This document shows positions 8,180 through 12,579 of a stretch of 64,000 nucleotides of DNA, piece by piece; the stretch's first letter is position 1, and every line of letters begins with the position of its first letter. Origin of the DNA: Symmachiella macrocystis (GTDB lineage Bacteria > Planctomycetota > Planctomycetia > Planctomycetales > Planctomycetaceae). Both the position numbers and the translations under genes were made by a program. Location of the stretch: contig NZ_SJPP01000002.1 of NCBI RefSeq assembly GCF_007860075.1, forward strand, positions 682,001 through 746,000. Reading direction: 5' to 3'. Under the pieces are notes generated by a model. The model saw nothing but the letters and a program-made list of their open reading frames with translations. It did not search any database and was not told where the DNA came from.

Positions 8180-8566
8180 CACCACAACCTCATTCAGTGT
8201 CTCTACAGAAGGAATTCATCAAAGCGGTGTGTGCGCCCCCAAATCACCCCACACAGCCGAGTATAACCCGTTGCCTAGGCCATCGTCACGCAGGAACCGA
8301 CTCCCGAGTGCGACAATCGCGGGAATTCTGTTTACACTGAAGGGACAGTTCGAAGGTCGAGAAGCCCGTGTACAACAATGCGTTATCGTGTCCAAGGTCG
8401 ACGAGAGACATGCGTCAGCGTGCCGACCATGCTTCCAGTAATAAAAAAATGCATTGCCGTGTTATAGTAGGGAAATTGCTCGTCCGACCTAGAAAGTTGC
8501 GTTGAGACACACGCAACCGGCTTGGAACAGACAATACCTCATTCCGCGTCCCGAAGGACTTTATTC
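8180..8566. other. divergent intergenic region
   Basis: This 387 bp region separates the divergent hydrolase and phosphoesterase genes and should hold both promoters. An A-rich patch (about 8441-8450) and a TATAGT-like hexamer at 8463-8468 could be part of the rightward promoter, but no good -35 partner is visible. Nothing else is supported. Confidence 0.4.
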
Positions 8567-9523
8567 ATGAATCGACGTGAATTACTGCAATCCCTGGCTG
8601 TGGGATCTGGAGCGGCTTTATTATCTTCTGGAATTGGCACACCGTTGTTGGCGGCCGATTCATCGATGCCCCGCAAGCGGACCGCGCGGTTAGCGCACCT
8701 GACCGATATCCACCTCAACGAAAAACGCTCCGCTGCGGACGGCCTGACCAAAGCGCTGCGGCATGTGCAGGCGCTCGATGATCCTCCCGAATTGCTCATC
8801 AACGGCGGCGACGCGATTTACGACGGACTGGCGGTCGACCGCAGCCACTTAGAAAGTCAATGGGCGCTGTGGAAGAACACCTGGAAAGCCGAGTGCGCGC
8901 TGCCGGTCAAACATTGCTTGGGCAATCACGATGTCTGGGGTTGGGACAAGCCCGGGAGCAAAACAACCGGCAACGAACCAGGCTGGGGCAAGCAGTACAG
9001 TCTGGATCAACTGGGACTAGAGCGAGGTTATTATGGTTTCAACGTTGGCGGTTGGCGAATATTGGTACTCGATTCCATGACCGCTGATAACGAGACCGTC
9101 TACCGCGGCGAATTGGATGCGGCTCAATTCGCGTGGTTGAAAAACGAACTGACCACCACGCCCGCCACCACCCCCATCGCAATCATCTCACACATTCCGA
9201 TCGTCACGGTGGGCGGCTTGGAATTTCAAGAGCACGTCAAACAAGACCCCCGCAAACGCCGCATGTTGTCGCACCAAGACGCAACAGCCTTGGTGCACCT
9301 GTTCCGCAAGCATACCAACATCAAACTCTGCCTCAGCGGGCATACACATTTGACCGAGCGGATTTCGTTTTCAGGCATCGACTTCGTCAACAGCGGCGCC
9401 GTCTGCGGGTTGTGGTGGAAAGGAGACCATTACCATACCGACGAGGGCTACAACGTGATCGACCTGTACGACGATGGGACGTTTGGGACGGAATACAAGA
9501 GCTACGGCTGGACGGTGGGTTGA
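8567..9523 (+). CDS. Tat-exported calcineurin-like metallophosphoesterase
   Basis: The start ATG at 8567 gives MNRRELLQSLAVGSGAALLS, a twin-arginine-like signal; an in-frame TTG at 8522 is less likely. The body has the metallophosphoesterase metal motifs in order: LTDIHLNE (D-x-H), NGGDAIYDG (GGD), CLGNHDVWG (GNHD), SHIPI (H) and SGHTHLTE (GHxH). This is the full binuclear metal site. Such proteins hydrolyse phosphomonoesters or phosphodiesters in the periplasm. The gene is convergent with the DUF4132 gene and their 3' ends overlap by 22 bp. Confidence 0.9.
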   Translation: MNRRELLQSLAVGSGAALLSSGIGTPLLAADSSMPRKRTARLAHLTDIHLNEKRSAADGLTKALRHVQALDDPPELLINGGDAIYDGLAVDRSHLESQWALWKNTWKAECALPVKHCLGNHDVWGWDKPGSKTTGNEPGWGKQYSLDQLGLERGYYGFNVGGWRILVLDSMTADNETVYRGELDAAQFAWLKNELTTTPATTPIAIISHIPIVTVGGLEFQEHVKQDPRKRRMLSHQDATALVHLFRKHTNIKLCLSGHTHLTERISFSGIDFVNSGAVCGLWWKGDHYHTDEGYNVIDLYDDGTFGTEYKSYGWTVG

Positions 9524-12156
9524 TGGTTGATTTGGCTGAGGATTGTTGCATCCTTGATCTTAGTATCTTCGGCAAGCAAGAAGGCTTTGCTGAGGATGAT
9601 TGACAGTGTGCGGTCGCCCTCGAACGGCAAAAAGACAGCATCGGCTCCTTTGTGGACCGATTGTCCGGGCACGATGCACAAATACGCGTCATTCGGCTCC
9701 ATGAGGATGTTTCCCGAACCGAGGTGGATTTTGTAGGTCCGTTTGTCCCCTCGTACGATCAGAAAGCGATCCGAGAACGTACAACGCTCGGCAATTTTCA
9801 ATCGGGGCACAAGCCGCTCTAAAATCGCTTTTCGCGTCTGGGCGGTATTTCCCAGATCGCCGAAAGAATAGCTGGTCCAATAATCCCGATATCGACCTTC
9901 GGGGCCACCGTCGCTCCAATTCGGATCGTTCCCCGCACTGGCGACGCCCACAAACAGATCGACGTCACGCAGCAATTCTGAAAATGCGAGGGGAGGAATT
10001 TCTTCTAGGGCTAGGGGATGATTTTCCTCTTCATCAGGGCCGGTAGAAGAATAGTCCCCATCGCCAACCTGCGCCCAATTCAGTGCTGCTTCATCTCGGT
10101 AAAAACGAACCTGGTCGGTCGTGAGATATAAATACGTGCCGGTCTCGTTCGAATCCACGCCATACTCTTCGCCGGCTCCTTCGACCCAAAACTCAGCCCG
10201 TAGATTCCAGTTGGGCAAGACCATGTGTGCCGGCGGATAAGTGGCGTCGACCATCAGCCGTAACGAATTTTTCCAGCCGCGCGCGGCACAAAGCGCATTG
10301 AACTGATGCTGTTTCAAAACATGACCGGCGAAACGATTGGAATAGACGCCCGTGTTTCTCTCGGCATCGGTCAGCAGGTAGACCTCTCGGTGCGCCTGTT
10401 TAAACGGTTGTTGGACTTCGTGTTCCAGCAGCCATTCACGCCAAGCAATGATATCGTCGATCGACTCATCCAAGGGATGCCACAGCGTCACAGTCGTATC
10501 GTCGGCCAAGTCCTCCAGCGGTGCGTTATCGTTGTGCACGAAACAGCCGTCGCAATAAAATGCCGAGACCTTTTTACCACCCGTTTCGAATGACCAAATC
10601 AGCCGCCGCGCTAATGTCCCGACCAAGGGATGCTCAAGATACTGCGCCCGCCATTGGGGAAGCTCCCAACTTCGCTGCTGCAAATAGACCTGTTCGATCC
10701 GCGCGGCTTGGACGGGGACCATCTTTTCAATATCTTTGGCGGCCAGTTTCAGTTCCTTAAGCTCGTCGCCAAAGTCCCGTTTCACCGCCGCTGGAACACT
10801 CTTTTGCGATTTGCCGTCCGGTTTGATCCAGCGAATTTCCGGTTTGCTCCCGTGCACGGTCAATTCGGCCGTTAATTCGCCGAGTTCCTGGCGGAGGACT
10901 CCTACGTAGGTCAAACCGTAGGTAGGAACAGCGATCTCTTCGATTTCGTCGCGGGATATTTCTTTACGCTTGGCTGCAGCAGCAAGGGCCGTATCGATTT
11001 CGCGCTGAGCGGCTTTAGAATTGAGACGCGATTTCAGCACTGCCAGTTGTCCAACGGCATTCATACAGGGGATTTCGCCAAGTGCGTATATACATGCGTT
11101 TCCGACCTTCAGGGCCCGTGCGCCTTTGTGCCGGACTTTCTTAAAGGCACTGATCGCCAGAGGAGTGAGTGCGCGAATGATTTCTATATCGTTACTAAAA
11201 ACACAACAGCGAACCAAGCCCTTAAGGATATCCTGATGTGAGTCAAGAATCAAAAAATCAGGGTTCGGTTGGAAGCGGAACCGCGTACTTTTGGGTTGTG
11301 TGCGCGGTTTGCTTACTAGCGGAAGCCAGCGCAACATAAACCGCTTGAAGACATCGGGATCAACTTGATCGTAACTGACTTTGGCATGCTTGATCCAACC
11401 CGCGTGCGTACCTTCGGATGAACATTCACAACAATCAAGCAGTTTTAGCCAATTCTTTTTTTCCGAGGTCTCCAACTTTTCCAAGTCGGCAATGGCAATG
11501 TCAGACCAAGCCTCACCCGGTTTGATCATGCACAGCGGTACAGCGCCAACCAGTGACTCCAATTGCCTCGCATATTTCTTCGAATCGGAATACTTGGTTG
11601 TTTTTCGCAGCAATACGGAAGTTTCAGTAACCAACTTGACTAATTCTTCGTCGAGGTCAGAGGTCTTTGTATAATCAGCAAGACGTTTGACAAACAATCC
11701 GGGAAGATTCATCGCACTAATATGCGACCAAGGGGCAAGCCGATTCACGCAACCACAAAGACCATAAACATCATCTCGAACTAGCGGCATTTTACGGCGC
11801 AACAAGAACGAAAGACCTGCGCGAATTGTATCGCCACATTCGACATCCAGTCGCTTGGGTAATTCTCGATACCGTTGCTTCCAATCAGGAAGTCTGTGCA
11901 GTTTTCTGATCCACTCACTTTGTTGCAGCAGCGCTCGAACTAAGCAGACCTTTTCAGTCGTAATCAACTTACCGATGCGTTTACCAACCGCGTTGTACGT
12001 GATGTCAGTTGGTTCGTGGATATACCGGAAATAATTTGTGTTTTCGCTTTCTCGGACAAATTGAGAAACCAGCTGATGCGCGTCAAACAACGGATCGCCC
12101 TCTGAGACAGGATTCTGCCGCAGAACATCATCATAAAATTCACGGTAATAGCTCAT
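9502..12156 (-). CDS. DUF4132-domain protein
   Basis: This large cytoplasmic protein (884 residues, no signal peptide) belongs to the DUF4132 family, named after the conserved region at about residues 410-600 (GELTAELTVHGSKPEIRW, WELPQWRAQYLEHPLVGTLA). The C-terminal domain (about 700-870) contains DLFVGVASAGNDPNW and FSDRFLIVRGDKRTYKIHLG, as in DUF4132 proteins and the related E. coli MolR/YehI group. The N-terminal 400 residues look alpha-helical and HEAT-like. The family has no established biochemical role. It lies 24 bp downstream of the small Gly-Gly-ending gene, so the two are probably co-transcribed. Its 3' end overlaps the convergent phosphoesterase gene. Confidence 0.85.
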   Translation of the reverse strand: MSYYREFYDDVLRQNPVSEGDPLFDAHQLVSQFVRESENTNYFRYIHEPTDITYNAVGKRIGKLITTEKVCLVRALLQQSEWIRKLHRLPDWKQRYRELPKRLDVECGDTIRAGLSFLLRRKMPLVRDDVYGLCGCVNRLAPWSHISAMNLPGLFVKRLADYTKTSDLDEELVKLVTETSVLLRKTTKYSDSKKYARQLESLVGAVPLCMIKPGEAWSDIAIADLEKLETSEKKNWLKLLDCCECSSEGTHAGWIKHAKVSYDQVDPDVFKRFMLRWLPLVSKPRTQPKSTRFRFQPNPDFLILDSHQDILKGLVRCCVFSNDIEIIRALTPLAISAFKKVRHKGARALKVGNACIYALGEIPCMNAVGQLAVLKSRLNSKAAQREIDTALAAAAKRKEISRDEIEEIAVPTYGLTYVGVLRQELGELTAELTVHGSKPEIRWIKPDGKSQKSVPAAVKRDFGDELKELKLAAKDIEKMVPVQAARIEQVYLQQRSWELPQWRAQYLEHPLVGTLARRLIWSFETGGKKVSAFYCDGCFVHNDNAPLEDLADDTTVTLWHPLDESIDDIIAWREWLLEHEVQQPFKQAHREVYLLTDAERNTGVYSNRFAGHVLKQHQFNALCAARGWKNSLRLMVDATYPPAHMVLPNWNLRAEFWVEGAGEEYGVDSNETGTYLYLTTDQVRFYRDEAALNWAQVGDGDYSSTGPDEEENHPLALEEIPPLAFSELLRDVDLFVGVASAGNDPNWSDGGPEGRYRDYWTSYSFGDLGNTAQTRKAILERLVPRLKIAERCTFSDRFLIVRGDKRTYKIHLGSGNILMEPNDAYLCIVPGQSVHKGADAVFLPFEGDRTLSIILSKAFLLAEDTKIKDATILSQINHQPTVQP

Positions 12157-12180
12157 TGGATTTGTGCCATCGGCGATTTC

Positions 12181-12579
12181 CTAACCACCCACCAACAACG
12201 TCAGCCGCAAAAACGTCACCACCGTTTGCGGGCCGACCTCGATCTCTTCTTCCAGCGATTCCGTCTGCCTATCGTCAACCAAGATTAGTATCTGGTTCCG
12301 CTCAAAACCCTCCAGCGCCTGTTCAAACTGTTTCTTCCAGTCGATCTGACGCCGCTTTTTCATCTGAAAGCCATTGAGAGTCCGCTCCGAATCGGTCGGT
12401 TGGACCAGTCCGTTGAATTCCGTTTGGTATTGCTTCGCGTTATGGTCTTTGACCTCTTGAAAAACGCGGCTGCGGATCAGTTCGCGGACTGTGATGTGTT
12501 CGGTGAGGCAATCGAGTGAAAACTCGTTGACAGCCCCACCGCCAAGTTCCTCGTCCCGAATCGTAATCGTCTGCGTCAT
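12181..12579 (-). CDS. small beta-grasp-like protein ending in Gly-Gly
   Basis: The start is the ATG at 12579, which has GAGGGA about 9 bp upstream; the in-frame ATG at 12585 sits too close to it. The 132-residue product opens with a strand-helix pattern (TQTITIRDEE, FSLDCLTE, then helix ITVRELIRSRVFQEV). It ends with ILILVDDRQTESLEEEIEV followed by TVVTFLRLTLLVGG, where the Gly-Gly is directly before the stop codon. This order resembles ubiquitin-like beta-grasp proteins, with about 50 extra residues between the first helix and the third strand. No named family is recognised. It precedes the DUF4132 gene by 24 bp. The ubiquitin-like fold is my inference. Confidence 0.7.
   Translation of the reverse strand: MTQTITIRDEELGGGAVNEFSLDCLTEHITVRELIRSRVFQEVKDHNAKQYQTEFNGLVQPTDSERTLNGFQMKKRRQIDWKKQFEQALEGFERNQILILVDDRQTESLEEEIEVGPQTVVTFLRLTLLVGG

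Follow-up and report, generated by a model that had tools for sequence, protein, structure and literature searches.

A conserved bacterial gene pair encoding a predicted ubiquitin-like Gly-Gly protein and a DUF4132-DUF7737 protein with an invariant cysteine

A homologue described in Deinococcus radiodurans and the gene pair of Symmachiella macrocystis

A divergent member of the protein family analysed here has already been studied in Deinococcus radiodurans (DR_A0165-DR_A0166; SEP068184), where DR_A0165 was predicted to have a MoaD/URM1/SAMP1-like fold and was described as Deinococcus-specific and antioxidant-related, and where both genes are part of the regulon for DNA damage (DdrO/IrrE) (PMC9650054, PMC8533742). 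DR_A0165 was reported to bind Trx1, and its co-immunoprecipitation partners were also recovered with a C-terminal tag, a result that speaks against these partners being conjugates; a knockout strain and the co-immunoprecipitation proteomics are both in existence (PMC9650054). The protein ends in ALAGG, the adjoining DR_A0166 is a DUF4132-DUF7737 protein with the cysteine discussed below, and the pair is located next to YeeE/YedE and thioredoxin genes. The available text of the two accounts mentions neither the Gly-Gly end, nor a connection to E1 enzymes, nor the cysteine of DUF7737 (PMC9650054, PMC8533742).

A related pair is present in the window analysed here, a stretch of 64,000 nt from the S. 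macrocystis genome. The first gene (12181..12579, minus strand, with an ATG start and a TAG stop) encodes a protein of 132 aa with the C-terminus TVVTFLRLTLLVGG, and the codons for Gly131-Gly132 (12184..12189, minus strand) directly precede the TAG, as originally predicted. A gap of 24 bp (12157..12180, minus strand) separates it from the downstream gene for an 884 aa DUF4132-DUF7737 protein (9502..12156, minus strand), and the two genes form a putative operon. Both this spacing and the DUF4132 assignment had been part of the original prediction, and they agree with the coordinates and with the Pfam match (PF13569, 6.5e-53) covering residues 448–628 (10273..10815, minus strand).

The AlphaFold2 model of the 132 aa protein, built with a 54-sequence alignment, is a beta-grasp (bb-a-b-b, pLDDT 72.7), in line with the ubiquitin-like fold that had been proposed by eye. 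Its top structural matches in the PDB are URM1, MoaD/MOCS2A and ubiquitin/ISG15, with URM1 (1wgk) as best Foldseek match (E 8.5e-3, prob 0.98), and with VIA Z-scores of 9.3 for MOCS2A (5mpo; 3.5 Å, 80 aa) and about 8 for ubiquitin (1.8–2.7 Å, 72–78 aa). The long insert that separates helix 1 from strand 3 is modelled at low confidence, and residues 128–132 have a pLDDT <50, i.e. a flexible C-terminal tail. Based on this model, the protein is probably a ubiquitin-like (MoaD/URM1-type) beta-grasp carrier, a view held with somewhat better than even confidence as part of the overall explanation given below. Pup, which is disordered and has a C-terminal GGE/GGQ, was ruled out as a candidate identity, since the 132 aa protein is predicted to be a folded beta-grasp and ends in Gly-Gly.

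Conservation of the pair and its co-occurrence with DUF7737

Relatives of the carrier were found in the genomes of other species (n = 63), and the family occurs in at least eight phyla; the viral collections searched contained none, and a phage-borne origin is thus unsupported. The expectation that homologues would share the Gly-Gly end was borne out almost throughout, at identities between 98% and about 29% and in many phyla, as all relatives with a known 3′ end have Gly-Gly at the stop codon except L080 (Ala-Gly) and L092 (a broken gene). A 78 aa member without the middle insert still ends in Gly-Gly and adjoins its partner. Pfam, NCBIfam and PDB sequence searches with the 132 aa protein gave no significant family, and the ThiS-family profile PF02597 matched only 2/54 carrier members, not significantly (best E 0.13). 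The negative Pfam and PDB searches would fit an unrelated small protein with a coincidental Gly-Gly end, but this is extremely improbable, and in practice refuted, given the conservation of Gly-Gly across phyla at low sequence identity, together with the beta-grasp model. The raw count of Gly-Gly-ended frames includes the family itself, and is therefore not a usable background.

The predicted linkage to DUF4132 proved to be conserved across phyla in the neighbourhood survey, with a DUF4132 gene adjoining the carrier gene in 56/63 relatives, and the two frames touching or overlapping in many of these. A second, divergent pair is located elsewhere in the S. macrocystis genome, where a 141 aa protein ending in LTLLAGG is encoded beside a DUF4132 protein of 1698 aa. 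The pairing of carrier and DUF4132 is a conserved system. A fold other than beta-grasp, homologues lacking Gly-Gly, and missing linkage to DUF4132 had been named beforehand as grounds for abandoning the original prediction; none of the three was encountered.

The identification of DUF4132 as partner stands with respect to adjacency, but the true partner of the carrier is more precisely the C-terminal domain DUF7737 (residues 772–876; 9529..9843, minus strand; Pfam PF24879, 1e-42), which had been overlooked, along with its cysteine. Among 294 planctomycete genomes, DUF7737 and the carrier are each present in 17 (the latter count including the mini-protein of G286), and 16 genomes have both; the carrier is thus found in 16/17 DUF7737 genomes, versus about one expected. 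DUF4132 occurs in many bacteria without any carrier, and DUF4132 genes without DUF7737, including the Escherichia coli control, have none. In Pan216 the carrier ends in Ala-Gly and the genome lacks DUF7737, while a DUF7737 protein encoded on an Acetobacter plasmid lacks the cysteine and has no recognisable carrier nearby.

Cys827, ThiF genes and the proposed fate of the carrier tail

The cysteine of DUF7737 (Cys827, motif YLCIVP; codon TGC at 9676..9678, minus strand) is present in every pair with a Gly-Gly end, in successive counts of 50/50 (A3), 63/63 and finally 67/67. In one clade of Bacteroidota the carrier tail reads G-[S/T/A/R]-YW/LW, with the residues before the last Gly retained and changes only from there on, and the equivalent of Cys827 is absent from all eight Bacteroidota pairs without a Gly-Gly tail. 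A tree-aware test of this coupling recovered only two independent coupled changes, which is too few for significance. The persistence of the Bacteroidota pair without Gly-Gly or cysteine makes a joint role without tail chemistry probable, and would suit a carrier that is a stable, non-covalent beta-grasp subunit of a DUF4132 complex, its Gly-Gly tail merely fitting a pocket. This subunit reading is improbable, since elsewhere the terminal Gly-Gly and the cysteine are both invariant and change together, and since E1 genes are present in six of the operons.

These E1 genes were detected in six flavobacterial loci, where a ThiF/E1 gene directly downstream of the pair creates a Ubl-DUF4132-E1 operon, and the encoded enzymes are short, single-domain and MoeB/ThiF-like, with intact catalytic motifs (GxGGLG, NLxRQ, Lys, DxTDN and a Cys equivalent to that of ThiF/MoeB). 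The original prediction had found no E1, E2 or JAMM gene in the window; this is correct for E1, and the survey added the flavobacterial E1 genes, without any JAMM or canonical E2 gene being seen beside the pair in the loci examined, nor any E1 beside the pair outside the flavobacteria. A ThiF protein is encoded in 16/16 carrier-bearing genomes tested and JAB genes are present in 12/16, the latter all unlinked to the pair, as are all ThiF genes of S. macrocystis. DUF4132 and, in flavobacteria, ThiF are the only recurrent neighbours of the carrier.

The type of E1 is also what a sulfur carrier would use, in which case the Gly-Gly end would bear a thiocarboxylate (as in MoaD, ThiS and CysO), the DUF4132-DUF7737 protein would take up the sulfur via Cys827, and no protein would be tagged. 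MoaD and URM1 being the closest structural matches also points this way, as do the YeeE/YedE and thioredoxin genes beside the D. radiodurans pair and the reported binding of Trx1 (PMC9650054). We nevertheless consider this unlikely, as thiamine, molybdopterin or tRNA-thiolation genes are not recurrently linked across the loci, the operons contain no recognisable rhodanese/IscS-type donor, and the partner proteins (830–1750 aa) are unlike known sulfur-accepting enzymes.

The structure predicted for DUF7737 has an a-bbbb-aa topology. No known fold convincingly resembled the DUF4132-DUF7737 protein in structural searches, the lowest Foldseek E being 0.12 and the VIA Z-scores staying at ≤4.5, and the VIA matches for the DUF7737 region were largely RWD proteins and UbcH5B with weak Z-scores (2.7–4.5). 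Since profile comparison with E2 enzymes was negative (hhalign against three E2 sequences, probability 0.3%, E 0.2), we do not call DUF7737 an E2; a Pfam search of 19 DUF7737 members likewise gave no E2 match.

On balance, the explanation that accounts best for the data as a whole is that an E1-activated carrier tail is handed to Cys827 of DUF7737. It builds on the observed gene pair, Gly-Gly end, DUF7737 co-occurrence, invariant cysteine, joint loss and flavobacterial E1 operon, and on the predicted fold. Speaking against it are the small number of independent coupled changes, the restriction of adjoining E1 genes to flavobacteria, the absence of JAMM and canonical E2 genes beside the pair, the negative E2 comparison of DUF7737, the many bacteria that have DUF4132 but no carrier, and the recovery of DR_A0165 partners with a C-terminal tag (PMC9650054). 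The C-terminal glycine of the carrier would be the reactive group and would be adenylated by a ThiF-family E1-like enzyme, whose gene is part of the operon in some flavobacteria; elsewhere a general ThiF/MoeB-type enzyme presumably takes this role. The activated tail may then pass to Cys827, to which it would be bound covalently in an intermediate of the thioester or acyl-disulfide type, and the large DUF4132-DUF7737 protein would therefore act as carrier receiver, either E2/E3-like or as sulfur acceptor. We tentatively favour a protein conjugate as the final product, conjugation by the carrier being our hypothesis, with transferred sulfur a less probable outcome. A fuller version, which is rather doubtful in its entirety, would be a Ubl conjugation cascade with a Gly-Gly carrier, a ThiF-type E1 and an E2-like thioester-forming DUF7737 (Cys827) within a giant substrate-selecting DUF4132 protein, serving the Deinococcus DNA-damage response, with a pseudo-enzyme branch in Bacteroidota in which tail and cysteine decayed together.

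Significance and comparison with known systems

The combination of a ubiquitin-like Gly-Gly carrier, a partner with an invariant cysteine and, in some species, an E1 suggests a hitherto unrecognised bacterial relative of ubiquitin tagging or of sulfur-carrier machinery. It provides a biochemical handle on DUF4132 and DUF7737, by naming a Gly-Gly carrier, an enzyme that may activate it and a single cysteine as catalytic candidate. If true, this would be a widespread, stress-linked addition to the few ubiquitin-like systems of bacteria, and a concrete prediction follows for D. radiodurans, for which the published knockout and proteomics are at hand (PMC9650054).

E. coli YehI-type proteins (MolR/WGR) share the DUF4132 domain, but lack DUF7737 and have no known Gly-Gly partner. 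The E1-E2-JAB operons (6a-6e of Iyer et al. 2006, PMC1779556; Bil, Bub; CBASS Cap2) likewise combine a Gly-ended beta-grasp protein with an E1, as in the flavobacterial operons, whereas the pair described here has no adjoining canonical E2, RING or JAB, usually has no dedicated E1, and has a single invariant Cys in DUF7737 of the partner. In comparison with the MoaD/ThiS/URM1 sulfur carriers and the SAMPs, the carrier has no significant ThiS-family sequence match, contains a long insert and is paired with a large DUF4132-DUF7737 protein rather than with MoaE/ThiG. With these carriers it shares the predicted beta-grasp, the free C-terminal Gly-Gly and, in flavobacteria, the link to a ThiF/MoeB-type E1.

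The gene pair and its relatives

The carrier, a 132-aa protein encoded on the minus strand (12181–12579), ends in VTFLRLTLLVGG with the TAG stop codon immediately behind it, and the 884-aa partner gene (9502–12156, minus strand) starts 24 bp downstream, both as originally predicted. Pfam placed DUF4132 at residues 448–628 of the partner, as expected, and DUF7737, which had been missed, at residues 772–876. The 3′ end of the partner gene overlaps a convergent metallophosphoesterase-like gene (8522–9523) by 22 bp (9502–9523). The same genome, of planctomycete type, contains a second, divergent pair, consisting of a 141-aa protein ending in LTLLAGG and a 1698-aa DUF4132 protein.

A scan using one genome per species identified 63 carrier relatives in Planctomycetota, Cyanobacteriota, Bacteroidota, Actinomycetota, Chloroflexota and Acidobacteriota, with Deinococcota and Alphaproteobacteria members added from plasmid searches. 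The proposed DUF4132 linkage was kept in 56/63, mostly with DUF4132 downstream (upstream in five, in the same orientation), and nearly all complete genes retained Gly-Gly directly before the stop codon, the exceptions being L080 (Planctomycetes Pan216, ending ...VAG) and the broken gene L092. Adjacent DUF4132 was lacking in L041, L074, L075, L078, L080, L092 and L098; in L075 and L078 the carrier gene is on, or at the end of, a short contig, and that of L078 is cut by the contig end. DUF7737 was present elsewhere in the genomes of L041, L074, L075 and L098, and was not found in those of L080, L092 and L078 (a MAG). Two architectures were distinguished by protein length: type A (carrier about 130 aa, partner 830–1500 aa) and type B (about 140 aa and about 1650–1750 aa).

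The AlphaFold2 model of the carrier (54-sequence alignment, mean pLDDT 72.7) is β-β-α-(insert, α)-β-β-β with a low-confidence tail. Near-top Foldseek matches included URM1 (1wgk), MoaD, SUMO and ISG15 (E about 0.01–0.05, probability up to 0.99), and staphylococcal beta-grasp superantigen-like proteins were also among the matches. VIA-align gave Z 9.3 with human MoaD (MOCS2A) and about 8 with many ubiquitin structures (1.8–2.7 Å over 72–78 residues), in agreement with the beta-grasp fold suggested by the original prediction. PMC9650054 predicts the same fold class for the Deinococcus member. A natural 78-aa version in genome G286, whose gene overlaps its DUF4132 gene, lacks the middle insert, with both terminal regions and Gly-Gly retained.

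DUF7737, its cysteine and the carrier tail

Of 294 planctomycete genomes, 23 have DUF4132, 17 have DUF7737 and 16 have the Gly-Gly protein (17 counting the mini-protein of G286). DUF7737 and the carrier occur together in 16 genomes, versus about one by chance (17 × 17/294). Exceptions were a 37-residue DUF7737 remnant in G041 and an outlying carrier in G123 (L153 1810–2421, ending MIQVAGG). The latter neighbours a nucleotidyltransferase-like gene and lacks DUF4132 in its vicinity. Six inspected regions with DUF4132 proteins lacking DUF7737 contained no Gly-Gly neighbour of the carrier family. In E. coli, used as a control, DUF4132 occurs without DUF7737.

Cys827 of the partner lies in a YLCIVP motif (SLCIVP in type B), and was conserved in 50/50 type A sequences in the main alignment, 63/63 of a wider set and 67/67 with further Bacteroidota pairs. 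In Bacteroides finegoldii, the carrier ends in LSGRLW and Ala occupies the Cys827 position, with 43/49 other conserved columns kept; an Acetobacter plasmid DUF7737 protein has Phe there and no recognisable carrier nearby. An out-of-sample test of this coupling in 395 Bacteroidota genomes gave four new pairs with Cys and Gly-Gly (L202–L205), and seven new type B pairs with a G-[S/T/A]-YW tail and Ser or Asn replacing Cys (DUF7737 being truncated in one, L212). Cys was thus absent in 8/8 non-Gly-Gly pairs (B. finegoldii included) versus present in 67/67 Gly-Gly pairs, with no mixed pairs. Since the non-Gly-Gly type B proteins form one clade, there are two independent events (this clade and Acetobacter), and the coupling is suggestive, and statistically not decisive. 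Cys-bearing DUF7737 without an adjoining carrier occurs at L170 and L216, in genomes with a carrier elsewhere. In genome G331, an intact carrier pair is accompanied by a further DUF4132-DUF7737 copy in tandem that lacks the cysteine (L156 9125–10588), and L051 likewise has two tandem copies.

E1 genes and the Deinococcus radiodurans pair

Of the E1 and JAMM genes that the original prediction proposed to look for, an E1 was found in six flavobacterial loci (four in Kordia, one each in Dokdonia and G701), where a ThiF-family gene begins at the DUF4132 gene end. In the 16 carrier-bearing planctomycete genomes tested, no ThiF gene is linked to the pair. Three of the six linked genes gave Pfam ThiF E-values of 1e-58 to 1e-61, and 6/6 products keep the GxGGLG loop, Asp-x-Asp, NLxRQ, Lys, D-x-T-D-N and a Cys matching the reactive Cys of ThiF/MoeB. 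These genes remain in place though identity between genera is down to 28–44%. Because at least one ThiF protein is encoded in 16/16 of the planctomycete genomes, an E1 is available there in trans. Within the carrier-bearing planctomycete genomes surveyed, many have E1-JAB gene pairs elsewhere. The window's genome has one such separate pair at L103 (G000:C5:37376–38983), a ThiF-family gene followed directly by a JAB-domain gene. Pairs of this type might act in trans on the carrier.

In D. radiodurans the pair corresponds to DR_A0165-DR_A0166. PMC8533742 describes a DdrO-binding motif for drA0165, and an exact match to it lies upstream of the carrier gene (L172 3723–3742, gene start 3805), in agreement with that study and contradicting PMC9650054, which states its absence. 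The two studies also report IrrE-dependent induction of DR_A0166 protein by mitomycin C (PMC8533742), increased antioxidant capacity upon DR_A0165 deletion and binding of thioredoxin Trx1 by its product (PMC9650054). The co-immunoprecipitation set described there is common to N- and C-tagged DR_A0165, and therefore gives no evidence for conjugation. Two YeeE/YedE sulfur-transport-type genes and a thioredoxin gene precede the pair (L172 2148–4209), a possible hint of sulfur chemistry; these neighbours are absent from other Deinococcus plasmids.

Proposed mechanism and nearest known systems

We propose that E1 would adenylate the carrier tail and hand it to Cys827, with a conjugate or a thiolation as possible outcomes. 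The model of DUF7737 shows an α-ββββ-αα topology, and its VIA matches are mostly RWD proteins, together with UbcH5B. As Z is 2.7–4.5 and profile comparison with E2s was negative, a possible E2 relation is only a lead. In a literature search with most subscription papers outside its scope, neither DUF4132 nor DUF7737 was tied to a ubiquitin-like protein of this kind. The nearest systems are E1-E2-JAB operons and sulfur carriers, and the carrier-DUF4132-DUF7737 pair differs from both in the architecture of its partner.
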